This document shows, piece after piece, positions 35,902 through 47,274 of a stretch of 64,000 nucleotides of DNA (positions are counted from its first letter, which is position 1; every line of letters starts with the position of its first letter). Origin of the DNA: Desulfobacterium sp. (lineage in GTDB: Bacteria > Desulfobacterota > Desulfobacteria > Desulfobacterales > Desulfobacteraceae); contig JAEINR010000009.1 of the NCBI GenBank assembly GCA_016342325.1, positions 1 to 64,000 of the forward strand. Reading direction: 5' to 3'. A model generated the notes under the pieces. It was not told the DNA's origin. It saw only the letters and a list, made by a program, of their open reading frames with translations, and did no database searches. The position numbers and the translations under genes are program-made.

Positions 35902-35963
35902 AGGTGTAATGTTCCTGACCCGGATGTATGGGGTCGGGCCACAGCCAAATAAAGGGAAGCAAT

Positions 35964-36665
35964 ATGCCAAAAGAGAAAATACTGATCGTTGATGATGAAG
36001 AGGATATCGTAGAGCTGGTTCGATACAACCTGGAAAAGGAGGGGTATGAAACCCTGGTGGCCTTTTCCGGGGAAGAGGCCCTTGCCCTGGCCTTGAAGGA
36101 GATGCCCGACCTTGTGGTCCTGGATCTCATGCTTCCGGGAATCGACGGCCTGGAAGTGACGCGCCAAATACGAAATAGCGAAAAGATCGTTTCTCTACCC
36201 ATCGTGATGCTCACGGCAAAGGGAGAGGAGACCGACATCGTTACAGGGCTTGAGCTTGGGGCAAACGATTATGTGTCAAAGCCGTTCAGTCCCCGGGAAT
36301 TGATTGCCAGAATAAGAGGAATACTTCGCAGACGGCGAAAGAGCGATGAAGGGGCGTCGCCGAACATCACCACGGCAGGATCCCTGGTGATCGACCATGG
36401 CCGCCACCGGGTCACCGTGGACAGGGAAAATTTAGAGCTGACCTTTTCCGAGTTCCAGGTGGTCTCGTTTCTGGCCGCAAAAAAAGGGTGGGTCTTTACC
36501 CGGGGGCAGATCGTGGATGCCGTCCATGGGGAAAATTATGCAGTCACCGAGAGAAGCGTTGACGTGATCATCGCCGGGCTGCGCAAGAAACTGGGGGCCT
36601 GTGCCACCTCCATCGAAACGGTCCGGGGGGTGGGATATCGCTTCAAGGAGGAGGAGGATGCCTGA
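35964..36665 (+). CDS. phoB: phosphate response regulator PhoB
   Basis: 233 residues. Receiver: ILIVDDEEDIVELVRYNLEKEGY, phosphoacceptor LVVLDLMLPGIDG, and DYVSKPFSPRELIARI. The OmpR/PhoB winged helix carries LTFSEFQVVSFLAAKKGWVFTRGQIVD, VTERSVDVIIAGLRKKLG and ETVRGVGYRF. The ATG at 35964 has AAAGGGAAG upstream and starts MPKEKILIVDDEE. It overlaps phoR by eight bases. The identification as PhoB rather than another OmpR-type regulator rests on the phoR neighbour and the adjoining pst operon. Confidence 0.93.
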   Translation: MPKEKILIVDDEEDIVELVRYNLEKEGYETLVAFSGEEALALALKEMPDLVVLDLMLPGIDGLEVTRQIRNSEKIVSLPIVMLTAKGEETDIVTGLELGANDYVSKPFSPRELIARIRGILRRRRKSDEGASPNITTAGSLVIDHGRHRVTVDRENLELTFSEFQVVSFLAAKKGWVFTRGQIVDAVHGENYAVTERSVDVIIAGLRKKLGACATSIETVRGVGYRFKEEEDA

Positions 36666-38424
36666 AAAAAAGAGAAAGCTGTTGTGGCATATCTTTCCTT
36701 CCTTCCTCCTTATCATGGTTGTCTCCCTCTCCGTTGTGACCTGGTACTCCACGGGGTTTTTCAGGGAGTACTACCTGGTTAACAGTGAAACCGATCTGAC
36801 CACCCAGGGAACCCTGATCCGGCGGGAAATGTTTGGGCACTCCCAGGACCGGGTCAATGAAATCTGCAAGGAGATCGGCAGGCTCACCCAGACGCGGGTG
36901 ACTGTTGTGCTGCCGTCGGGCCGGGTGATCGGTGATTCCTTCGGGCGTGTCCTGGAGATGGAGAACCACCGGGTCAGGCCGGAAATTGCCGCGGCCCTGA
37001 AGGGGGACAAGGGGGTGTCTGTCCGATACAGCGCCACCCTTGGCCAGAAGATGATGTACGTGGCCCTGCCCATGGAGAGCCGGGGCAGGGTTTCCGCAGT
37101 GGTGCGGACCTCGGTATCTGTGTCAAACATCGACAATGAGATTCGTTCGGTTCAGAAGAGTATCGTTGCTGTCCTGGTGGTCACAGCCCTTGCCGCAGCC
37201 GGTGTGGCCCTGCTGGTTTCCCGGCGCATCACCCGTCCCCTTGAGGAGATGCGGGCCGGGGCCCAAGGGTTTGCCACGGGGGACCTGACCCGGCGGCTGG
37301 CCGTGCCCGATACCGAGGAGCTCTCGTTGCTTGCCACGACCATGAACCGCATGGCCGAGCGCCTGGACGAGAAGATCCAGAGTGCCGAGACGCGCACCAT
37401 GGAGCTTGAGGCGGTGCTTTCCAGCATGAAGGAGGGGGTGATTGCCATCGACCTGAACGAGGAAATTCTCATGGTCAACCGGGCTGCCGCCGGTATATTT
37501 GACTCACCTGCCGAAGGGCTGACCAACAGAAACGTGGTTGAGATCGCCCGGAATTACGATCTTCAGCAGTTCCTTAACAAGGCCCTGGCCAGCCATGATT
37601 CCGTTGAGGAGGATATTCTCTTTACCGGCAGAAGGGAGCATGTATTCAACATCCATTCCACGGCCCTGTGCAACTCCCGGGGGGGGCGCATGGGAACCCT
37701 GGTGATCTTCCATGACATCACCCGGATTCGAAGGCTTGAAACCATGCACAAGGATTTTGCCGCCAATGTCTCCCACGAACTCAAGACCCCCCTGACCTCC
37801 CTCAAGGGGTTTGTGGAAACCCTCCAGGACCTGAACGGTGAAGAGGTCCTGGAAAAAAGGAGCAAGTTCCTGACCATCCTGGAGAAGAACGTCAACCGCC
37901 TCATCGCCCTGGTGGATGACCTCATGGTGCTTTCAAAGCTGGAGAGAAAAGAGGGGGTGGTGCCGGTGTTTGACCCGGAAGCGCTGACCCCGGTGGTCAA
38001 TACGGCCCTTTCTGCCTGTAAGTGCATGGCCCAAAAACGGGGGATCGTTCTCCATGCCGCTGTTTCAGACGCTGTATCTGCCTTGATGGATCCCCTGCTC
38101 ATGGAGCAGGCCGTTGTGAATCTTGTGAACAACGCCTTGAAGTACAGCGAGCCCGGCAGCGAGGTCTCTGTTGAAGGGGGGGAGGAAGAGGGATATGCCG
38201 TGATCCGGGTGGTTGATTCCGGACCTGGCATCCACAAAGAGCATTTGCCGCGGATATTTGAGCGGTTTTACCGGGTGGACAGGGCCCGCAGCCGGGACAT
38301 GGGGGGCACGGGGTTGGGGCTCGCCATTGTAAAGCACATTGTCCAGTACCACGGGGGTGAGATCCGGGTGGCGAGTACCCCGGGCAAGGGATCTGTGTTT
38401 GAGATCCGCCTGCCCCTGGCCTGA
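36658..38424 (+). CDS. phoR: phosphate sensor histidine kinase PhoR
   Basis: 588 residues from ATG 36658, which has AGGAGG just before it. Layout: TM1 (IFPSFLLIMVVSLSVVTWYST), a periplasmic region of about 150 residues, TM2 (VAVLVVTALAAAGVALLVS), a HAMP domain, a PAS domain (MELEAVLSSMKEGVIAIDL), the H-box FAANVSHELKTPLTSLKGF, and the ATPase with NLVNNALKYS, DSGPGIHKEH and GGTGLGLAIVKHI. The periplasmic region is longer than in enteric PhoR, which lacks one, as is common outside gammaproteobacteria. It phosphorylates PhoB under phosphate limitation. Confidence 0.93.
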   Translation: MPEKKRKLLWHIFPSFLLIMVVSLSVVTWYSTGFFREYYLVNSETDLTTQGTLIRREMFGHSQDRVNEICKEIGRLTQTRVTVVLPSGRVIGDSFGRVLEMENHRVRPEIAAALKGDKGVSVRYSATLGQKMMYVALPMESRGRVSAVVRTSVSVSNIDNEIRSVQKSIVAVLVVTALAAAGVALLVSRRITRPLEEMRAGAQGFATGDLTRRLAVPDTEELSLLATTMNRMAERLDEKIQSAETRTMELEAVLSSMKEGVIAIDLNEEILMVNRAAAGIFDSPAEGLTNRNVVEIARNYDLQQFLNKALASHDSVEEDILFTGRREHVFNIHSTALCNSRGGRMGTLVIFHDITRIRRLETMHKDFAANVSHELKTPLTSLKGFVETLQDLNGEEVLEKRSKFLTILEKNVNRLIALVDDLMVLSKLERKEGVVPVFDPEALTPVVNTALSACKCMAQKRGIVLHAAVSDAVSALMDPLLMEQAVVNLVNNALKYSEPGSEVSVEGGEEEGYAVIRVVDSGPGIHKEHLPRIFERFYRVDRARSRDMGGTGLGLAIVKHIVQYHGGEIRVASTPGKGSVFEIRLPLA

Positions 38425-38444
38425 TCCATGCGGGTTCCCTTGGT

Positions 38445-39221
38445 TTATGCCAGGGTCGAGTAGTTGAGGTAGACCAGCCTGACAATGGTGAGGAAGACAA
38501 CGGTGAGGAAGATCGGGCGGATAAATCCTGCCCCCTTTTGTATGGCAAGGTTGGAGCCCAGCCTTGCCCCCAATACCTGGCCCAGGGCCATGCACAGCCC
38601 CAGGTCGTAAAGCACGTTGTCCCCGATCATGAAAATGGCCAGGGCAACAATGTTGCTGATAAAGTTCATGATCCGTGTGAAGCCGGACGCCTTGGTCATA
38701 TTGAACCCCATGACCACCACAAATGCCGCGGTCCAGAAGCTGCCGGTCCCGGGACCGAAAAAGCCGTCATAAAACCCGAGGGCCAGGCCGAAAATAAGGA
38801 AAAACAGGTTCTGGGGCAGCTTTGCCTGGGTGGTGCCTGTTCCCAGGTCTTTGGTGAAGAGGGTGTAGAGAAAAACCGTGACCAGCAGAAACGGGATGAT
38901 CTTGTTCAGGAACTGGGCATCCATGTGCTGGATGGCCCAGGCGCCGGTTCCGGCACCTGTCAGGGTAAAGAGGGCACCGGTCCAGGCCTCCCCGGGTTTT
39001 ACCTCCCCTTTTTTGATGTAGTTGTATGCCGCAGACAGCGTTCCAAAGCTTCCCTGGAGCTTGTTGGTGCCAAGGGCCATCTGGGGCGAAATTCCCGTGG
39101 ACAGGAGTACCGGCAGGGCGATCAATCCGCCTCCCCCGGCAATGGAATCCACAAATCCCGCAGAAAAACCTGTACCAAACAAGAGTAAAACCAGTGGGGC
39201 CGAAAGCTCAATGGGGGGCAT
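38445..39221 (-). CDS. TauE/SafE family sulfite/anion exporter-like permease
   Basis: 258 residues with about eight membrane helices. The ATG at 39219-39221 has AAGGA nine bases upstream; the frame also extends six codons further. GFSAGFVDSIAGGGGLIALPVLL and GTNKLQGSFGT match the conserved halves of the family, and the second half repeats the motif around GFYDGFFGPGTGSFW. Members move sulfite, sulfoacetate or other organic acids; the substrate here is unknown. A sulfate reducer has obvious uses for sulfite export, but this is a guess from biology. It is convergent with phoR and unlinked to it. Confidence 0.88.
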   Translation of the reverse strand: MPPIELSAPLVLLLFGTGFSAGFVDSIAGGGGLIALPVLLSTGISPQMALGTNKLQGSFGTLSAAYNYIKKGEVKPGEAWTGALFTLTGAGTGAWAIQHMDAQFLNKIIPFLLVTVFLYTLFTKDLGTGTTQAKLPQNLFFLIFGLALGFYDGFFGPGTGSFWTAAFVVVMGFNMTKASGFTRIMNFISNIVALAIFMIGDNVLYDLGLCMALGQVLGARLGSNLAIQKGAGFIRPIFLTVVFLTIVRLVYLNYSTLA

Positions 39222-39239
39222 GATCAACAATCCTTTCAA

Positions 39240-39523
39240 TGTTATCTTGGGTCATTTCTTTGGGGGCATGTTATTTGGGGTCAGGCTTTAATATGGGTTC
39301 TGTCTTTTTGCCGGTCTGCCCCTTCCTCCATGGCTCCATCCCGTCTAAGCAGATATCCCGGAACCGATTAAAAAACAAGCACAATTATTGGCTGGACATC
39401 TCCTTTGCCAAGATAGTATGGAGATGGAGCGCAGGGTTTTTGATCCTGATCCGTTGGCATGGATGAGGGCAGGATGTCGGTGAATCTCACCGGAAGGGAC
39501 GCGTTCAAGAATGGGGAGGAAAA
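39240..39523. other. intergenic control region before the sigma/RND operon
   Basis: About 280 bases between the divergent TauE/SafE gene and the anti-sigma gene. GGAAC at 39359-39363 could be an ECF-type -35 element, with AAACAAGCACAATTA downstream, but no matching -10 is convincing. No gene or repeat recognised. Confidence 0.4.
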
Positions 39524-39964
39524 ATGGCACATATCAAGGAGACCGAACTGAACCTGTGGGCGGAAGGAGCCCTTTCCGGAAGCCGACGTGGGGCCGTGGA
39601 AGCCCATCTTTGCCGATGCAGGCGTTGCAGGGAGAAGGCCCGGGAGCTGACGGTCCTGTTTGACGCCTTAGGGCAACTGCCGTCCCTGGCCCTTACCCGG
39701 GCGGTTGAAGCAAGGGTGGCTGCCATTCCGGGAACCGGTCGTTCCGTTGGAGAAGAACGTTCCTTTTGGCAGCACCTTGAGGCGCAATGGCGATCCCTTG
39801 CCTATGGGGCTGTGGCAGCAGGGGTTGTGACCGGCTGCATTCTGGGGGCCACGGTCCTGGATTATGTTTCCCCGCCCATGGATGCCGGTGGTATGATCGC
39901 AGCGGTCGAGGTTGAGGAGGGCGATGCCGGCTATTTTTTTCTTGAAGAGGGGGCGGAATATTGA
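39524..39964 (+). CDS. putative zinc-finger anti-sigma factor
   Basis: 146 residues. The N-terminal 60 residues carry the anti-sigma HxxxCxxC zinc-binding pattern (AVEAHLCRCRRCREKARELTV), followed by a linker, one membrane helix (AYGAVAAGVVTGCILGATVLDYV) and a short acidic periplasmic tail. GGGGAGGA lies before the ATG. It should hold the ECF sigma factor encoded two genes downstream. Its stop overlaps the TTG of the sensor gene. The order anti-sigma, sensor, sigma is the reverse of the usual sigma-first layout. Confidence 0.83.
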   Translation: MAHIKETELNLWAEGALSGSRRGAVEAHLCRCRRCREKARELTVLFDALGQLPSLALTRAVEARVAAIPGTGRSVGEERSFWQHLEAQWRSLAYGAVAAGVVTGCILGATVLDYVSPPMDAGGMIAAVEVEEGDAGYFFLEEGAEY

Positions 39965-40434
39965 ATTTATTGACAAAACGCCTTGTGGTGATATTCTCAT
40001 TGGGCCTTAATCTCGGTTTTTTTATCATGGGCGGCTATGTGCTGGTGCAGAAGGGGTGGGGTGAAACATCATCCTTTCATAACCGTTTCAGGCATACCCG
40101 GCCCTATGACCGCCTGAATCTTGATCCCGGCCGGAAGGCCCGGGTCGACGCCATGGGCGAAGCGTTCAGGGCAGAGATGAAAAAGATCTATCTTGGGGCA
40201 ATGGCCGAAGAGCTTGCCGTCATTGACCATCTCATGAAAACCGTGGAACCGGACAGGGCGCTCATCAACGGTCATACCCGGAAGATGGTGGCCCTTGAAA
40301 CCCTTAAGGTAGAGAAGCGGATCTCGCATTTTTTGGCGGTCAAGGGCACTTTGACCGATGATCAGGCAAGGGCGTTCTTCTCCCTTTTGCGGAAGTACAA
40401 GCAGCAGAAGATCGACCGGCGACGGGGACATTGA
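39961..40434 (+). CDS. CnrX/ZraP-like periplasmic sensor protein
   Basis: 157 residues with an N-terminal anchor (LVVIFSLGLNLGFFIMGGYVLV) and a mainly helical periplasmic domain. This carries a histidine-rich stretch (SFHNRFRHTRPYDRL) and the LTxxQ-like LTDDQARAFFSLLRKYK common to the Spy/CpxP/CnrX group. Such proteins sense metals or envelope stress and, as CnrX, restrain the anti-sigma factor. The start is TTG at 39961, overlapping the anti-sigma stop (TTGA). Its position between an anti-sigma and an ECF sigma gene strongly suggests a sensor role. Confidence 0.78.
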   Translation: MNLLTKRLVVIFSLGLNLGFFIMGGYVLVQKGWGETSSFHNRFRHTRPYDRLNLDPGRKARVDAMGEAFRAEMKKIYLGAMAEELAVIDHLMKTVEPDRALINGHTRKMVALETLKVEKRISHFLAVKGTLTDDQARAFFSLLRKYKQQKIDRRRGH

Positions 40435-40440
40435 CCGCGA

Positions 40441-41025
40441 ATGAATGGCAAGGGCAACTGGCTGCACCTGTTGGGCAAAAAAAGAGAACACCCAGGGGAG
40501 GGTGAGATGATGCAGGCCATCGCCCAGGGAAGCCAGGACGCATTTCTGGAGCTGACCACCCGGTATCAACAACGGGTCCTCAACTTTGCCTTCAGGTTCC
40601 TGGGCACACGGGAGGAGGCCGAGGATGTGGTCCAGGAAACCTTTTTGAGGCTGTTCAAGGGGGCCAATGCCTATGATGCCAGGGGGACGTTGACCGCTTT
40701 TGTGTTCCGGATCGTCCGGAATCTGTGCATCGACAGGTTCCGGAAAAAGAGCCCCGAGTTGCTGGACAGGCTGCCTGACCCCCTGGATAATCAAACGCCC
40801 CATGATTATCTTGACAGAAAGCAGGCCATGGCGTCCCTGGCTGATGCTGTCCGGACGCTTCCGGAAAATCAGTGTACCGCAGTGATCCTCCGTCACACCG
40901 AGGAGCTGAGCTACAGGGAAATTGCAGAGATTATGGGTGTCTCCACCTCGGCTGTGGAGTCCCTTCTGGTGAGGGGGAGGCGAACCTTGAGGAAACAACT
41001 TGGCATGGGGGTGTTGGGTGAATAG
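40441..41025 (+). CDS. ECF-type RNA polymerase sigma factor
   Basis: 194 residues. Region 2 (DAFLELTTRYQQRVLNFAFRFLG, EEAEDVVQETFLRLF, and IVRNLCIDRFRKK) and region 4 (LPENQCTAVILRHTEELSYREIAEIMGVSTSAVESLLVRGRRTLRK) are clear, with only a short linker between, as in ECF factors. It should direct polymerase to the sigma/RND operon and perhaps other stress genes, under the anti-sigma factor and sensor just upstream. The start at 40441 follows the sensor gene by six bases; a later ATG pair near 40507 is an alternative. Confidence 0.92.
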   Translation: MNGKGNWLHLLGKKREHPGEGEMMQAIAQGSQDAFLELTTRYQQRVLNFAFRFLGTREEAEDVVQETFLRLFKGANAYDARGTLTAFVFRIVRNLCIDRFRKKSPELLDRLPDPLDNQTPHDYLDRKQAMASLADAVRTLPENQCTAVILRHTEELSYREIAEIMGVSTSAVESLLVRGRRTLRKQLGMGVLGE

Positions 41026-41052
41026 AACCATAACCGTGGAAAGCGTATTCAA

Positions 41053-42603
41053 ATGAGAAGAGAAACCATTGTCAGCATCGTCATTTTTGGGCTGCTCCTG
41101 TTGGCCCAGGGCTGCCTGGGTGTGAACCCGTCCCCTGAATCCCTTGTGCCCGAACAGTTCCCGGATCAGTTTATCCGGGATTCGGGATCAGGGCCCCCGT
41201 TGCCGGAGCGGTGGTGGGAAAGCTTTGGCAGCGACCCGCTGAACCGCATGGTGGAGAATGCCCTGGGCAGCAACTTCACCATCAGGGAGGCCTATGCAAG
41301 GCTTGACCAGGCAAGGGCGGTTTCTAAAGAAAAGCGGTCCCCACTCGTTCCAAGCCTGGATCTGCAGGCAGGGGTCAGCCAGAGACGAACCCGGGCCGAT
41401 GGCCATGAATCCACCGTGGATGTTTTCTCCCTGGGCCCTGCAGCAAGCTATGAGGTGGATCTTTGGGGGGGTGTCAGGGCCCGGGCCCAGGCAGGAGAGA
41501 CGGCAAGCAGGGCAAGCCGCCTGGACCTTGAGACGGCGGCCATGACCGTGGCGGCAGAGGTGGCTACCACCTGGGTGGAACTCGTTTCAACCCTGGGGGA
41601 ACTCGATCTTGTCAGAAAGCAGCTTCAGATCAATACCATGCTGCTGGAACTCCTGGAACTCAGGTTTGAAAATGCCCTTTCCACCGGCCTGGATATCCTC
41701 CAGCAGCAGGAGGTGGTGGCCCGGGCAAAGGCCCAGATGCCGCCCCTGGAGAATCGCATCAGCGCGCTTTCCAACCGGCTTTTTCTGCTCCAGGGCAGGG
41801 CCCCGGGAAAGACCCTTTCCTTGGGAAAGACCCTTTCCTTGGGTAAGACCGATCTGGCCGAACTTCCCCTGTTGCCCGATATCGGTATCCCTGGGGATCT
41901 TCTGGTTAAGCGACCCGATGTCAGGGCGGCCTGGCTGAGGCTTGTGGCCGGACGATGGGACCGGGCCGGGGCCCGGGCAGACAGGCTGCCGTCATTGAAT
42001 CTCACGGGAAGCATGGTTTACCAGAACTCGGGCCTGGACAATCTGTTCAACGCCTGGGTGCTCTCCCTTGCCACAAACCTTGCCGGTAACCTGTTTGACG
42101 GCGGAAAAAGGGCAGCTGCCGTTGACAGGGCCGACGCCGTTGTTGACGAGCGGCTTGCCTTTTATGAGAAAACCGTATTCACGGCCCTGGTGGAGGTGGA
42201 AGATGCCTTGTCCGGGGAGATCCACCAGCGGGAGTGGCTGGGCTCTCTTAATAAGCAGCTTGAAATCGCCCGCCTGGCCTTGCAGGAGGCCACCAACCGC
42301 TATCAAAAGGGGCTTTCCGACTTTCTTCCCCTGCTCAGGGAACAGCTCAATGTCCAGGGCCTGGAGCGGGAGATCGTCAAGCAGCAGGCCCAGCTCATCA
42401 TCGCAAGAATCTCCCTGCACCGCTCCCTTGGCGGCACCTGGACAAATTCTCTCGGCGTTGGGCAAAGAAATGGTGCCCCGGGGGATACCCTGGGTGTTGG
42501 GCAAAGAAACGGTGCCCCAGGGGATGCCTTGGGTGTTGAGCAAAGAAACGGTGCCCCAGGGGATGCCTTGGGTGTTGAGCAAAAAAGCGGCAGGGGAGCC
42601 TGA
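41053..42603 (+). CDS. NodT-type outer membrane efflux lipoprotein
   Basis: 516 residues. The lipobox LLLAQGC puts the lipidated cysteine at residue 21. Two OMF repeats follow (AYARLDQARAVSKEKRSPLVPSLDLQ; the second half around KRPDVRAAWLRLVAGRWD). This is the duct of the second RND pump. Two in-frame DNA repeats are odd: an 18-base repeat encoding GKTLSL twice near residue 252, and a 39-base repeat encoding LGV(G/E)QRNGAPGD(A/T) three times plus a partial copy at the C-terminus, beyond the fold. The tail may be strain-variable. Confidence 0.92.
   Translation: MRRETIVSIVIFGLLLLAQGCLGVNPSPESLVPEQFPDQFIRDSGSGPPLPERWWESFGSDPLNRMVENALGSNFTIREAYARLDQARAVSKEKRSPLVPSLDLQAGVSQRRTRADGHESTVDVFSLGPAASYEVDLWGGVRARAQAGETASRASRLDLETAAMTVAAEVATTWVELVSTLGELDLVRKQLQINTMLLELLELRFENALSTGLDILQQQEVVARAKAQMPPLENRISALSNRLFLLQGRAPGKTLSLGKTLSLGKTDLAELPLLPDIGIPGDLLVKRPDVRAAWLRLVAGRWDRAGARADRLPSLNLTGSMVYQNSGLDNLFNAWVLSLATNLAGNLFDGGKRAAAVDRADAVVDERLAFYEKTVFTALVEVEDALSGEIHQREWLGSLNKQLEIARLALQEATNRYQKGLSDFLPLLREQLNVQGLEREIVKQQAQLIIARISLHRSLGGTWTNSLGVGQRNGAPGDTLGVGQRNGAPGDALGVEQRNGAPGDALGVEQKSGRGA
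41805..41850 (+). repeat. 18-base in-frame tandem repeat
   Basis: GGGAAAGACCCTTTCCTT at 41805-41822 and again at 41823-41840, then a partial copy GGGTAAGACC to 41850. It adds GKTLSL repeats to the OMF between its two halves and contains an inner palindrome GAAAG/CTTTC. Confidence 0.85.
42451..42591 (+). repeat. 39-base in-frame minisatellite at OMF C-terminus
   Basis: Three full units (42451-42489, 42490-42528, 42529-42567) and a partial fourth from 42568. Units 2 and 3 differ at two bases; unit 1 differs at a few more. Each unit codes 13 residues, so unit gain or loss keeps frame. Confidence 0.9.
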
Positions 42604-42686
42604 ACCGCCATGGCAGAGGGTCGAATTTTGGCTGTTAGCCGGGGGCGGCTTGTGTTGTTATCATCTTAAATTGCGTGGAAACCATC

Positions 42687-43940
42687 ATGATCAAACAGAC
42701 TAAAACAGGGTGGGGCGTCAGGGCGATGGGGATTCTTGTCCCCATGTTCATCGTCCTTGCAGGTCTTGCCCTTGCATGTTTTCTCTATGTCACAAAACCC
42801 GCTGCAAAGCGGGGGCAGGCCCAAATTAAGGCGCCCCTGGTGGAGGTGATGGCGGCCCGGGCCGCTGACCATGTGGTCACCCTCTCCGCCATGGGAACCG
42901 TGACCGCCTCCCGGTCCATGGCCCTGAAACCCAGGGTGGGCGGGTTTGTGCTCAACATTTCCCCGCGCTTTGTCCCGGGGGGGATCTTTAAAAAAGGGGA
43001 GGTGATCCTGGCCCTTGATCCCATGGATTACAAACTTGCCCTGGAAAAGAGGAAAACCCTTGTTGCCCGTGCCAGGGCCGAACTTAACCTTGAGAAGGGC
43101 CGGCAGGCGGTGGCCAGGGCCGAGGTGAAACTCATGGAGACCACCTCCGGAAAACGGTTCCGCGACTCGGATCTTGCCCTTAGAAAGCCCCAGCTGGCAA
43201 AGGTGCAGGCCGATCTTGCGTCGGCCATGGTTGATCTTGAAACCGCCCGGCACAACCTTGAACGAACCGTGATTCGCGCCCCCTTTAACTGCATGGTCAT
43301 GGAGAAGAATGTGGAGCAGGGATCCCAGGTCACAACCCAGGAGATCCTGGCCACCCTCTCCGCCACGGACGCGTACTGGGTGGAGGCGACCCTGCCCGTG
43401 GATGAGCTTGCCTGGATCCGGTTTCCCTTGTTCGGCAAGGGCCAGGGTAGTGCTGTCACCGTCTTCACCCGGGATAACAAGGCCCACCCGGGAAGGATCT
43501 TGAGACTGCTGGGGGATATTTCCCCCCAAAGCCGCCTTGCCAGGGTGCTTATCACGGTCGATGACCCCTTGGGCCTTGAAACCGAAAAAGTCAACCCATT
43601 GCTCATCAACGCCTATGTGACGGTGGCCATTGAGGGGGAACGGATCAACAACGTCATTGCCCTTCCCCGGGAGGTGGCAAGGGACGGCAATGGGGTCTGG
43701 ATTGTCCGGGATAACAGGCTTGCCATTGGCCGGCTTGAGATCCTGTGGAAAAACGCCGAGACCCTGTTCGTGAGATCCGGGGTCGAACCCGGTGACAAGA
43801 TCGTTATCTCCGACCTTTCCTCTGTTGTGGACGGTATGGTCATCCGGGTCCAGGGCGGTGGGAACGGGCCCAAAACGGCCGGCGGTGCTTTGGACGGGGA
43901 AACCAGTGGAAAACTCCGGGAGCAGGCTCCCCAGGGTTGA
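42687..43940 (+). CDS. RND efflux periplasmic adaptor
   Basis: About 417 residues from the ATG at 42687; an in-frame GTG at 42675 is the other option. Membrane anchor MGILVPMFIVLAGLALACFL, then lipoyl halves (VTLSAMGTVTASRSMALKPRVGGFV; NLERTVIRAPFNCMVMEKNVEQGSQVT) around a coiled hairpin. The C-terminal domain includes YVTVAIEGERINNVIALPREV. It belongs to the same class as the adaptor at 22.4 kb, but the two are only distantly similar. Repeat element D lies in the gap before the permease gene. Confidence 0.92.
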   Translation: MIKQTKTGWGVRAMGILVPMFIVLAGLALACFLYVTKPAAKRGQAQIKAPLVEVMAARAADHVVTLSAMGTVTASRSMALKPRVGGFVLNISPRFVPGGIFKKGEVILALDPMDYKLALEKRKTLVARARAELNLEKGRQAVARAEVKLMETTSGKRFRDSDLALRKPQLAKVQADLASAMVDLETARHNLERTVIRAPFNCMVMEKNVEQGSQVTTQEILATLSATDAYWVEATLPVDELAWIRFPLFGKGQGSAVTVFTRDNKAHPGRILRLLGDISPQSRLARVLITVDDPLGLETEKVNPLLINAYVTVAIEGERINNVIALPREVARDGNGVWIVRDNRLAIGRLEILWKNAETLFVRSGVEPGDKIVISDLSSVVDGMVIRVQGGGNGPKTAGGALDGETSGKLREQAPQG

Positions 43941-44035
43941 ATGTTTTTACCGATATCGAAATTTCGAAACAGCCTGATTTAAAGCGTTTTTACGTCTGAA
44001 CGGATGGGTAATATATAATATCTATTGCGACCTAC

Positions 44036-44107
44036 TTAGCTCTGATTCTTGCGTTATGTTGGTAAGAGAGTCGGAAAACTTGTTTGATCTGGCTTGTCCA
44101 GGCTAGG
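44036..44107 (+). repeat. dispersed intergenic element, copy D
   Basis: First hairpin CTGATTCTTGC with GTAAGAGAGTCGG, using G-T wobbles at positions that are G-C or A-T in copy A; then AAAACTTGTTTG, second hairpin CTGG, loop CTTGT, CCAG, and tail GCTAGG. About 95 bases after the adaptor stop and 17 before the permease ATG. Confidence 0.72.
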
Positions 44108-44124
44108 AAAAAGAGTGCGTGATC

Positions 44125-47100
44125 ATGGGAAATAACTTAGAGCGAACAGAACGAAAAGGGGCTGTGTCATGGATGGCCGGCAACAGCGTGGCAGCCAATC
44201 TCTTGATGGTGATCCTCCTGGTGGGAGGGCTCTTCATGGGCAGCAAGATCAAGCAGGAGGTGTTCCCGGCGTTTGAGATCGGGATCGTCAACGTCTCGGT
44301 GAGCTATCCTGGGGCAAGCCCGGAAGAGGTGGAGCGGGGCATTGTCCTTGCCGTTGAAGAGGCGGTCCAGGGCCTGGACGGGCTGGACGAGATGCGGTCA
44401 ACGGCCTTTGAGGGCCATGCCCGGATCTCCCTTGAGGTGCTCGAGGATGTGGATGTGAGGCGCTTTGCCCAGGAGGTGGAGAGCGAGATAGACGCCATCA
44501 CCTCGTTCCCGGACGAGGCTGAGACGCCCATGGTTTCCGTGGCCACCCGCCGCCGCCAGGTGGTCTCCTTTTCCCTGTTCGGCGATGTTTCCGAGAACGT
44601 TTTAAGGGACAGGGCCGAGCTCCTGCGGGAGATGCTTCTCCAGGACCCCGCCATTACCCAGGTGGAGCTCAATGGGGTTCGGGATTACGAGATCCACATT
44701 GAAGTGCCCCAGGAGAACCTGAGGCGTTACAATTTAACCCTTGCCAAGATCGCCGCCACCATTGCCGACGCTTCCATTGAACTGCCCGGGGGAAGCCTGA
44801 AGACCTCCGCCGGCGAGATCATGGTGCGCATGAAGGAGCGGCGGGAGGTTGCCAGGGAGTATGCAAAGCTTGCCGTCATCACCCTTGACGACGGGGCAAG
44901 GGTACTTCTCGAGGATATTGCCGTTATCACGGAGGGGTTTGAAGACTCCAACAACCATGCAAGCTTTAACGGCAAACCTGCGGTCATGCTCGAGGTGTTC
45001 CGGGTGGGGGACCAGAAACCGGTGGTGGTGGCAGACGCTGCCAAGGCAGGCATTGCACGGTTTAAACAGTCGTTGCCCCCGGGGATCGACGTGGCCATGA
45101 TCCATGATCGGTCGGAAATCTTCAGCCAGCGGGCGGCCCTGCTGGCCAAGAACGGTTACATGGGCCTGGGCCTGGTGTTTCTCTTCCTGGCCCTGTTCCT
45201 GGATATCCGCCTTGCCTTCTGGGTCTCTTTGGGGATTCCCATTTCTTTGCTCGGCTCCTTTCTCCTGCTGCCCCTGACCGATTTTTCCATTAACATGGTT
45301 TCCATGTTCGCCTTTATCGTTACCCTCGGTATTGTGGTGGATGACGCCATTGTGGTGGGGGAGAACGTCTATCACTACCGCCAGAAGGGCGTGCCGTTTC
45401 TGGATGCCGCCATCCAGGGTACCCGGGAGGTGGCCGTGCCCGTGGTGTTCAGCATCCTCACCAATATCGTGGCGTTTTTGCCCATCATGTTCGTTCCCGG
45501 CACCATGGGTAAATTTTTCAAGATCATTCCCGTGGTGGTGATCACGGTATTTATTGTCTCCCTTGTGGAGAGCCTCTTTATCCTGCCGGCCCATCTTGCC
45601 CATGGGAAAACAGGCTCCGAGAGTAAGGTGATGGGGTGGATCATTGCCCGGCAGCAGCGGATCAGCCAGGGGCTTGTCTCGTTTGTGGAGCGGGTTTACG
45701 TCCCTTTTTTGGGCCGGGTGTTGCGGAAGCGATACACCTGCCTTGCCGTTGCCGTTGCCATCCTCCTCATCGTGGGGGGCTATATTAAAAGCGGCCGGAT
45801 CACCACCACCCTCATGCCCCGGGTGGAATCCGACTATGCCTATGTCACGGCCTCCCTTCCCAGCGGCAGTTCAAAAGAGCGGGTGTCATCGGTATTGGAG
45901 CGCATCAGCGCTGCGTCCCGAACGGTGATCAAAGAAAACGGCGGCCAGGCCCTGTCCCGGGGATTCTTCTCCCATGTGGACGACAACGTGATCACCTCAA
46001 GGATTATGCTGACCCCGGGGGATGTCCGGCCCATCCACACCTCCGAAGTCACGGATCTGTGGCGGAAAAAACTCGGCCCCATCCCCGGCCTGGAATCCAT
46101 CACCTTTCAGGCGGATCGGGGCGGACCCGGTTCCGGCACCTCCTTGAACATGGAGCTGAGCCACCGGGAGATCGATACCCTCAGGGCAGCCAGCAAAGCC
46201 CTGGCCCGGGAGCTTGCCACCTTTCCCACCACCCGGGACATGGATGACGGATCGGCCCGGGGAAAACAGCAGTTTGACTTTACCATGCTTCCCCTGGGGG
46301 AGATGATGGGGCTCAAGGCCAGGGATGTCGCCCTTCAGGTGCGCCACGCCTTTTACGGGGCCCAGGCATTGAAGCTCCAGCGGGGACGGAACGAGGTAAC
46401 GGTGAGGGTGCGCCTGCCCGAGCAGGAGCGGACCTTTGAACATAATCTGGAGACCCTCATGGTGCGAAATTCGGCGGGCCAGGAGGCGCTGTTGCGGGAG
46501 GTGGTTGCCATGGAGCGGGGCAGGGCCTACACCTCGGTTGATCGCCGGGACGGACGCAGGATCTCCACGGTTTCTGCCAATGTGGTGCCACGGAACGAGA
46601 CAAGCCGTCTCATCGCCGTGCTCCAGGAGGAGATCCTTCCCCGTATCCAGCACGACTATCCCGGGCTGACCTGCAAGTTCCAGGGCCGCCAGGCCGACAT
46701 GCGGGAGAGCACGGAAAGCCTCATTTCGGGCCTGCTGATGGCCCTTTTCGTCATATACGCCCTTCTGGCCGTGCCCTTCCGGAGCTATGTTCAGCCCCTG
46801 GTCATCATGGCGGCCATCCCCTTTGGTCTTGTCGGGGCCGTCATCGGCCACATCCTGCTTGGTTACTCCCTCTCCCTCATGAGCCTGTTCGGCCTTGTGG
46901 CCCTCTCCGGGGTTGTGGTGAACGATTCCCTCGTGATGATCGATTTTGCCAATCGTCGCAGGAACAGCGGCATCCCAGCCCAGGAGGCGATCCTTGCGGC
47001 AGGCAAGCAGCGGTTCCGTCCCATCCTTTTGACCACGCTGACCACCTTTGGGGGGCTGGCCCCCATGATTTTTGAGACGTCCCGCCAGGCACGGTTCATG

Positions 47101-47274
47101 GTGCCCATGGCTATTTCTCTTGGGTTTGGGATCCTCTTTGCCACCCTCATCACCCTGGCCCTGGTGCCCACCTTTTACATGGTGGTGGAGGATTTTCGGG
47201 GGCTTTTCAGGGAAGAGGCCCCGGACGAGGCAGACGCCCGGATAATGGAACGGAAAGCCCAGGAGCAGTTTTGA
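44125..47274 (+). CDS. RND family efflux permease
   Basis: About 1050 residues from ATG 44125 (a GTG two codons earlier is possible). TM1 is VAANLLMVILLVGGLFMGSKI. The TM4 proton-relay pair is in FIVTLGIVVDDAIVVGENVYHYR; the second-half equivalent is LFGLVALSGVVVNDSLVMIDF. The long periplasmic loops and the SYPGASPEEVERGIVLAVEEAV motif match the AcrB-like multidrug group rather than the CusA metal-ion group. With the upstream sensor and sigma genes this suggests toxic organics or envelope stress, not only metal ions. Last gene of the operon. Confidence 0.95.
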   Translation: MGNNLERTERKGAVSWMAGNSVAANLLMVILLVGGLFMGSKIKQEVFPAFEIGIVNVSVSYPGASPEEVERGIVLAVEEAVQGLDGLDEMRSTAFEGHARISLEVLEDVDVRRFAQEVESEIDAITSFPDEAETPMVSVATRRRQVVSFSLFGDVSENVLRDRAELLREMLLQDPAITQVELNGVRDYEIHIEVPQENLRRYNLTLAKIAATIADASIELPGGSLKTSAGEIMVRMKERREVAREYAKLAVITLDDGARVLLEDIAVITEGFEDSNNHASFNGKPAVMLEVFRVGDQKPVVVADAAKAGIARFKQSLPPGIDVAMIHDRSEIFSQRAALLAKNGYMGLGLVFLFLALFLDIRLAFWVSLGIPISLLGSFLLLPLTDFSINMVSMFAFIVTLGIVVDDAIVVGENVYHYRQKGVPFLDAAIQGTREVAVPVVFSILTNIVAFLPIMFVPGTMGKFFKIIPVVVITVFIVSLVESLFILPAHLAHGKTGSESKVMGWIIARQQRISQGLVSFVERVYVPFLGRVLRKRYTCLAVAVAILLIVGGYIKSGRITTTLMPRVESDYAYVTASLPSGSSKERVSSVLERISAASRTVIKENGGQALSRGFFSHVDDNVITSRIMLTPGDVRPIHTSEVTDLWRKKLGPIPGLESITFQADRGGPGSGTSLNMELSHREIDTLRAASKALARELATFPTTRDMDDGSARGKQQFDFTMLPLGEMMGLKARDVALQVRHAFYGAQALKLQRGRNEVTVRVRLPEQERTFEHNLETLMVRNSAGQEALLREVVAMERGRAYTSVDRRDGRRISTVSANVVPRNETSRLIAVLQEEILPRIQHDYPGLTCKFQGRQADMRESTESLISGLLMALFVIYALLAVPFRSYVQPLVIMAAIPFGLVGAVIGHILLGYSLSLMSLFGLVALSGVVVNDSLVMIDFANRRRNSGIPAQEAILAAGKQRFRPILLTTLTTFGGLAPMIFETSRQARFMVPMAISLGFGILFATLITLALVPTFYMVVEDFRGLFREEAPDEADARIMERKAQEQF

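Follow-up and report, generated by a model that had tools for sequence, protein, structure and literature searches.

A cnr-organised ECF sigma factor cassette predicted to control an RND pump of a separate lineage in Desulfobacterium

The window analyzed here, 64,000 nucleotides of contig JAEINR010000009.1 from a Desulfobacterium sp., contains six same-strand open reading frames at 39524-47274 (+ strand) that encode an anti-sigma factor, a membrane-anchored sensor, an extracytoplasmic function (ECF) sigma factor, and the outer-membrane factor (OMF), periplasmic adaptor and permease of a tripartite resistance-nodulation-division (RND) pump. Judged from the sequence, the first three genes probably form an autoregulated sigma factor cassette that is organised like the cnr operon and controls a pump of a separate lineage, a reading to which we assign a probability of about 0.72. 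The gene order, the transmembrane (TM) features, the CnrX fold predicted for the sensor, the loss of the CnrX ligand set, the linkage between cassette and pump, and the counts of a promoter motif all support this reading. The cnr regulatory layout would then be separable from metal resistance, since here its six-gene design is combined with a pump of another lineage and a sensor in which the CnrX metal site is missing. An earlier note on this DNA had proposed a self-contained sensor, anti-sigma and sigma cassette ahead of a pump, and this part of it was upheld by the conservation of the genes, the CnrX-like fold, the absence of the CnrX site and the shared motif.

Gene order and distribution of the cassette

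All six genes are located where the earlier note had placed them. Five of the six proteins scored above the Pfam cut-offs (zf-HC2, sigma-70 regions 2 and 4, OEP, HlyD and ACR_tran), while the sensor matched LTXXQ with 18.4 bits, below the cut-off of 24.3. The anti-sigma factor (146 aa, 39524-39964) matched zf-HC2 with 26.0 bits against a cut-off of 22.2. It is followed by the sensor (157 aa, TTG start, 39961-40434), whose CnrX fold is predicted from an AlphaFold2 model compared with Foldseek and VIA-align, and by the sigma factor (194 aa, 40441-41025; Sigma70_r2 74.7 bits, Sigma70_r4_2 56.6 bits). The OMF belongs to the NodT family (41053-42603; TIGR01845 260.9 bits, cut-off 210.05), the adaptor starts at GTG 42675 or ATG 42687 (42675-43940; TIGR01730 132.7 bits, cut-off 94.9), and the permease starts at GTG 44119 or ATG 44125 (44119-47274; ACR_tran 565 bits). 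The anti-sigma stop and the sensor start overlap by 4 nt, and the sensor and sigma genes, and the sigma and OMF genes, are separated by 6 and 27 nt. The adaptor and permease genes are 178 nt apart (43941-44118); in L008, the sister genome, the distance is about 95 nt. This gap is zero or approximately 10 nt in L011, L012, L048 and L049 and wide again in L276.

The order of these genes had been considered unusual. However, on the Cupriavidus metallidurans plasmid pMOL28 the genes cnrY, X, H, C, B and A follow one another exactly as in the window; that is, the nickel/cobalt operon cnrYXHCBA(T) also runs anti-sigma, sensor, sigma, OMF, adaptor, permease. A CnrX-like sensor fold is predicted to be common to both systems. 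They differ in the class of the anti-sigma factor (class II in CnrY, class I zinc-binding in the window), in the CnrX metal ligands, which are missing as a set from window-type sensors, and in the permease, which is 23% identical to CnrA and lacks the metal-type residues tested. What is new with respect to cnr is therefore the anti-sigma class, the sensor chemistry, the pump lineage and the promoter; the architecture is the same, and the system is not categorically new. The window sigma factor has sigma-70 regions 2 and 4 only, as in ECF sigma factors, and shares 25% identity with CnrH by alignment (27% by BLAST, E 1.5e-11). Compared with eight sister cassettes from other genera, it is 43-49% identical to their sigma factors.

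The source genome, G000, comprises 6.67 Mb in 205 contigs. Two further genomes of the genus were compared: in G001 all six genes are present, at 79-93% identity, and in G002 no match to the sensor was found. The anti-sigma-first order was found again in other families. The sensor loci examined first (n = 27) included six with this order, eight that were sigma-first and 13 that were incompletely recognised. Later sensor profile searches, covering 98 relatives and 389 genomes of the taxonomic order, yielded 11 new cassette loci. Of the five genera concerned, two were already represented in the set that defined the promoter motif and three were not; five of the loci belong to one genus. Once duplicates were removed (L102 equals L049, L110 equals L011, L240 equals L098, and L241 equals L106), the cassettes with the gene order of the window came to 22, including the frameshifted L106. 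Loci where not all three genes were recognised (e.g., L052, L053, L056-L060) were left out of both this set and the set of 15 sigma-first cassettes used below, as were further loci such as L062-L067 and L280. Residue counts refer to 20 sensors, a set without L106 and L279, which have broken sensor frames, and to 21 anti-sigma factors, a set without L106.

A pump was found downstream of the cassette in 16 of the 22 loci. At five cassettes (L242, L243, L272, L275 and L279) the pump was absent from the stretch fetched, and at L278 the contig ends. Two of the cassettes without a pump, L242 (3797-6595) and L243 (3899-6744), lie between a flagellin gene on the upstream side and a gene for a sigma-54-type activator on the downstream side, as named from reading the sequence, and in L243 a weak second copy of the motif (position weight matrix, PWM, score 17.6) precedes the activator gene. 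In L106/L241, a metagenome-assembled genome (MAG) of Desulfotignum, the cassette, OMF and adaptor are spread over several frames and the permease occupies one frame; the broken frames reflect either decay or assembly errors. CnrX-like sensors also lie beside the pumps of L057 (9154-15489) and L060 (2017-9273). The permeases of these two loci score better with CnrA than with the window permease, and therefore other kinds of pump may use CnrX-like sensors.

No close relative of the sensor was detected in viral contigs or in the plasmids searched. A description of the cassette was not found in the open-licence literature searched, a search that did not take in the main ECF classification (10.1093/nar/gkaa1229), and the window sigma factor possibly belongs to an already numbered ECF group.

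A promoter motif ahead of the anti-sigma gene

The predicted cassette promoter, CGCAGG-N16-CGTT, lies at 39430-39455 on the + strand, 94 nt before the anti-sigma start codon, and is both the only exact match and the best PWM hit in the window. The consensus CGC[A/T]GG-N16-CGT[T/C] was present upstream of the anti-sigma gene in all ten cassettes first collected. Because the motif was first seen by eye and its two loose positions were fitted to these loci, the ten are in-sample. Dinucleotide shuffles of the same ten upstream stretches produced it at a mean of 0.005 of ten loci, with a maximum of one. When spacings from 8 to 25 were scanned, the 16-nt spacing occurred in ten loci, a 12-nt spacing in one, and no other spacing was found. 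Out of sample, the strict motif was present in 10 of the 11 loci found after it had been defined, the exception being L242, which has TGCCGG-N16-CGTT. With the anti-sigma start codons partly set by hand, 20 of the 22 cassettes carry the strict motif before the anti-sigma gene; the misses are L242 and the frameshifted MAG locus L106, where the spacing is 17 nt. None of 64 pump operons that have no cassette carries it.

The 15 sigma-first cassettes have no strict motif before the anti-sigma gene, nor before the sigma gene, where the best PWM scores range from -10.7 to 12.3. Eight of them (L009, L010, L013, L244, L281, L282, L284 and L286) have a looser motif, with PWM scores of 15.7-24.6, before the anti-sigma gene and not before the sigma gene. 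Its form is CGxxGGTTTT...GTTTA, as in CGCAGGTTTT...TGTTTAA and CGGGGGTTTT...CGTTTAA. As far as these sequences go, the strict motif accompanies the anti-sigma-first order and a looser relative appears to mark the same site in sigma-first kin. The looser forms weaken the exclusiveness of the motif and at the same time strengthen the case for a real site. We read the strict and looser forms as one promoter family, possibly part of a wider promoter code of systems with CnrX-like sensors.

A second strict copy is located between the sigma and OMF genes in six of the 16 pump-bearing cassettes (L011, L048, L049, L106, L239 and L273), among which L011, L106 and L239 are close kin. Two CnrH-dependent promoters, cnrYp and cnrCp, are described for cnr in an excerpt of one report (PMC9045368), and their positions are those of the motif before the anti-sigma gene in the window and before the OMF gene in the six relatives. 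Inspection by eye revealed no window-type motif before cnrY or cnrC. Two other candidates were set aside. Between the adaptor and permease genes there is a degenerate site with a score of 8.7, which is not claimed as a promoter, and a search for ECF promoters of the GGAAC type ahead of the anti-sigma gene produced one regular-expression hit only, in L048.

At the genome scale, CGCAGG-N16-CGTT had 10 exact hits in the window's own genome compared to 7 with the reversed control. Adding a T-run to the pattern left two exact hits, and allowing two mismatches gave 179 hits versus 88 in the control, an excess that is too noisy to be used. The second exact T-run hit is antisense over the end of a coding frame and recurs in the sister genome; it is not claimed. 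The operon site appears to be the only credible one in this genome, so the sigma factor seems to be local there. In the genome of Desulfoluna limicola, the pattern with the T-run had two exact matches, both at the cassette locus. The second of them precedes a neighboring gene for a protein with ABC_sub_bind and OEP domains, and in L277 a site is found at the same place. These genes, combining an ABC substrate-binding and an outer-membrane efflux part, are at 2-1741 in L079 and 11429-13501 in L277, from two Desulfoluna-related genomes; L079 is the one in which the domain composition was tested. Three exact T-run matches away from the cassette were seen in G133. With this motif the regulon of the sigma group can be approached from genome sequences, and the cassette can be studied in a reporter strain.

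Sensor, anti-sigma factor and pump

The sensor sequence gave no meaningful hit against the PDB, and therefore a fold comparison was used; CnrX itself was not hit by BLAST up to E 10. In the AlphaFold2 model, obtained with six aligned sensors, a helix at the N-terminus is followed by three long helices in the periplasm (mean pLDDT 78.5, pTM 0.60). In the Foldseek search of the PDB, ranks 1 to 13 were all CnrX (best E 5.7e-3, probability 1.00). VIA-align superposed the model on CnrX with a Z of 11.8 over 104 residues at 2.7 A; the values for CpxP, ZraP, Spy and an unrelated plant protein were 9.6, 9.1, 8.7 and 9.4, respectively. The case for a CnrX fold in the modelled sensor is good but not overwhelming. 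The sensor resembles the LTXXQ family proteins CpxP, Spy and ZraP in its helical fold and weak LTXXQ match, but it is membrane-anchored, has a conserved TM signature and is encoded inside a sigma/anti-sigma cassette. This signature, F12-S13-x2-L16-N17-x-G19 (39994-40017, + strand), is nearly invariant: F12, S13, N17 and G19 are present in 20 of 20 sensors and L16 in 19. In nine sensors, the mean top-residue fraction was 0.62 in the TM helix versus 0.41 in the periplasmic helices.

The metal ligands of CnrX, which we take to be H42, H46, E63 and H119, were checked as residues on the pMOL28 sequence. Together with M123 they make a set of five, which is complete in none of the 20 cassette sensors. 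In the portion of one report available (PMC7689651), Met123 is described as necessary for CnrX signalling and as conserved among CnrX homologs. The window sensor has H123 (40327-40329, + strand) as the equivalent of CnrX H119 and a valine at position 127, which corresponds to M123. Only the H119 equivalent is certain, and the E63 column is alignment-dependent (E or G). Over the 20 sensors, the H119 column contains 14 histidines and six tyrosines, and the M123 column has methionine in eight. The earlier description of the sensor as CnrX/ZraP-like is consistent with the modelled CnrX fold, but the sensor is not histidine-rich: it has six histidines in 157 residues, two of which, at 40 and 45, lie in the linker.

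The anti-sigma factor is of the class I zinc-binding type, with one TM helix and a short acidic periplasmic tail. The zinc-binding motif H28-x3-C32-x2-C35 (HLCRCRRC, 39605-39628, + strand) follows a Hx3Cx2C pattern found in all 21 anti-sigma factors scanned. The TM helix (39794-39859, + strand) carries GxxxGxxxG, formed by G100, G104 and G108, a pattern present in 20 of the 21; among the first ten loci it occurred in nine, compared to a mean of 0.64 and a maximum of 4 after shuffling. The C-terminal periplasmic tails of sister proteins are recognisable, e.g., PYQSVYASKGIYP or EDPYLGYLISDNGDLL. The window tail matches neither form closely and shares mainly a tyrosine and a glycine near the end. 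BLAST of the window protein against CnrY gave no hit up to E 10, and an excerpt of one report (PMC7406223) assigns CnrY to class II. The class I proteins RsiW and ChrR, of the ZASD type, are like the window protein in Hx3Cx2C and in a zf-HC2 match above cut-off. The window protein differs from them in being paired with a separate membrane-anchored sensor of predicted CnrX fold and in having only a short periplasmic tail.

The permease is an ACR_tran family member, like the HAE-1 (AcrB, MdtBC) and HME (CusA, CnrA) transporters. Its identity by alignment is 22% with AcrB, 23% with MdtB, 24% with MdtC, 22% with CusA and 23% with CnrA (24% by BLAST). These values are alike, and the permease was therefore taken to be neither AcrB-type nor metal-type. 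None of the 16 NCBIfam models listed reached its cut-off; the HAE model TIGR00915 scored 314 bits (cut-off 940) and the HME model TIGR00914 scored 287 bits (cut-off 701). The nearest solved structure, MdtB, is distant. The proton-relay residues of AcrB, presumably D407, D408 and K940, were located on the K-12 protein, and the positions of its phenylalanine-rich hydrophobic trap are likewise our assumption. D407, D408, R971 and T978 are kept, K940 is replaced by N, and none of the six trap phenylalanines tested (F136, F178, F610, F615, F617 and F628) is present. CusA M573, M623, M672 and E939 are all replaced as well, so that the permease differs from both the HAE-1 and the HME groups. These results support the view of the earlier note that the pump is not a metal-type RND transporter, but do not support its AcrB-type assignment. 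An organic-solute type is the reading that fits the pump best.

When genome contigs were scanned with the permease alignment, at least 501 relatives were confirmed, and the best 80 were kept. OMF and adaptor genes precede the permease in 72 of these 80; of the eight exceptions, six lie close to the end of a contig. A cassette stands in front of the permease in seven of the 80, including two duplicates of known loci and one that is broken. For the loci without a cassette, 78 nearby upstream proteins were selected from 111 listed. A CecR domain was recognised in 10 of them and a TetR domain in 9, with some proteins counted in both groups; the set also contained 10 response regulators, 8 histidine kinases and 2 ECF sigma factors. 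A permease tree of 90 rows, built by a quick method before the later loci were found, placed all 11 cassette-bearing permeases in one clade of 36 rows with an SH-aLRT support of 99. The cassette label changes five times on this tree, with four changes forced by well-supported branches; label shuffles gave a mean of 10.6 changes, and 0 of 500 were as low as five. A single origin of the cassette is not shown by the pump tree, and the cassette history may consist of either one gain and several losses or several gains. The nearest permeases outside the genus, from Desulfamplus and Desulfocicer, have no cassette. Among named organisms, those whose permeases are nearest belong to the Desulfobacteraceae, and the pump lineage was seen in Thermodesulfobacteriota, Planctomycetota and Verrucomicrobiota, among others.

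Proposed mechanism and competing readings

In the mechanism that we propose, the zinc-domain anti-sigma factor would hold the sigma factor at the membrane of the resting cell. The sensor would in turn hold the anti-sigma factor by pairing of the TM helices (FSxxLNxG in the sensor, GxxxGxxxG in the anti-sigma factor) and by contact with the C-terminal tail of the latter. A periplasmic signal would shift the sensor and loosen the anti-sigma factor. Because the sensor has lost the metal set and the permease has no metal-type residues, the likeliest signal is misfolded protein or a compound that is organic or damages the envelope, and not nickel or cobalt sensed as in CnrX. The freed sigma factor would read CGCAGG-N16-CGTT at 39430-39455 and raise the expression of its own three genes, and the pump would be raised by read-through from the same promoter. 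The unrecognised stress signal and broad pump proposed in the earlier note are inferences of the same kind.

Several results weigh against this proposal. The control of the pump by read-through is assumed, since the window has no second motif before the pump genes and the adaptor-permease gap is wide. The motif taken alone is not significant in the 64-kb window, where five hits with at most one mismatch compare to 3.65 expected, and its looser form in the sigma-first cassettes shows that it is not exclusive to the anti-sigma-first order. A pump is missing from the vicinity of five cassettes, and the distribution of the cassette is patchy, with G002 of the same genus lacking it. The fold assignment depends on a model of medium confidence, and a Z of about 12 between helical bundles may partly reflect a common arrangement. 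Finally, H123 is retained in 14 of the 20 sensors, which may therefore have another metal site.

A different way of releasing the sigma factor would be through a damage detector similar to RseB or CpxP: the sensor would bind misfolded proteins or hydrophobic ligands, and its release would allow a protease to cut the anti-sigma factor by regulated proteolysis. The sensor fold, which also matches CpxP, ZraP and Spy, and the recognisable exposed tails of the sister anti-sigma factors are compatible with this pathway. However, the tail of the window protein itself is close to neither sister form, a Pfam search found a protease-like family in none of the six genes, and the conserved TM residues favor direct contact. 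We consider regulated proteolysis unlikely.

A sensor that does detect metal through a rebuilt site, with H123 and the N-terminal histidines binding a metal other than nickel or cobalt and the pump exporting the metal or a complex of it, would suit the CnrX fold, the histidines in the H119 column and at 40 and 45 of the linker, and the known job of the cnr layout, which is metal efflux. Nonetheless, no ligand set is conserved over the 20 sensors, since the H119 column is tyrosine in six and the M123 column is mixed, and the permease lacks the three methionines and E939 of CusA, which makes this explanation improbable. That cassette and pump are mere neighbors in this genome, with the sigma factor acting on its own three genes alone and the pump transcribed from a separate promoter, agrees with the single strict motif copy of the window, the 178-nt gap before the permease and the five pump-less loci, but is very improbable in view of the short gaps of 6 and 27 nt, the joint occurrence in 16 of 22 loci and the second motif copy between sigma and OMF genes in six of 16.

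A broader proposal, which we advance tentatively and at somewhat less than even odds, is that the cassette is portable and has its own promoter code. It would use the CnrX fold for a signal other than nickel or cobalt, by means of a glycine-zipper TM pair and a tail-docking peptide, and would be connected to varied outputs. These would be mostly the tripartite RND pump of the third lineage, which elsewhere often has TetR/CecR or two-component regulators as neighbors. Relatives of Desulfoluna would also have the ABC-binding-protein/OMF gene as an output, and the pump-less loci the sigma-54-type activator and other genes.

Some features of the surroundings were also recorded. Upstream of the cassette, 35928-39239 encodes a PhoB/PhoR-like response regulator and kinase on the + strand and a TauE/SafE transporter on the - strand, and these genes are found in the sister genome as well. 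The OMF gene contains an in-frame 18-bp repeat of 2.6 copies at 41805-41850, and a 39-bp repeat of 3.4 copies (92% match) at 42457-42590 gives the protein a repetitive C-terminal tail; the OMF is 516 aa long in the window and 484 aa in L008 of the same genus.

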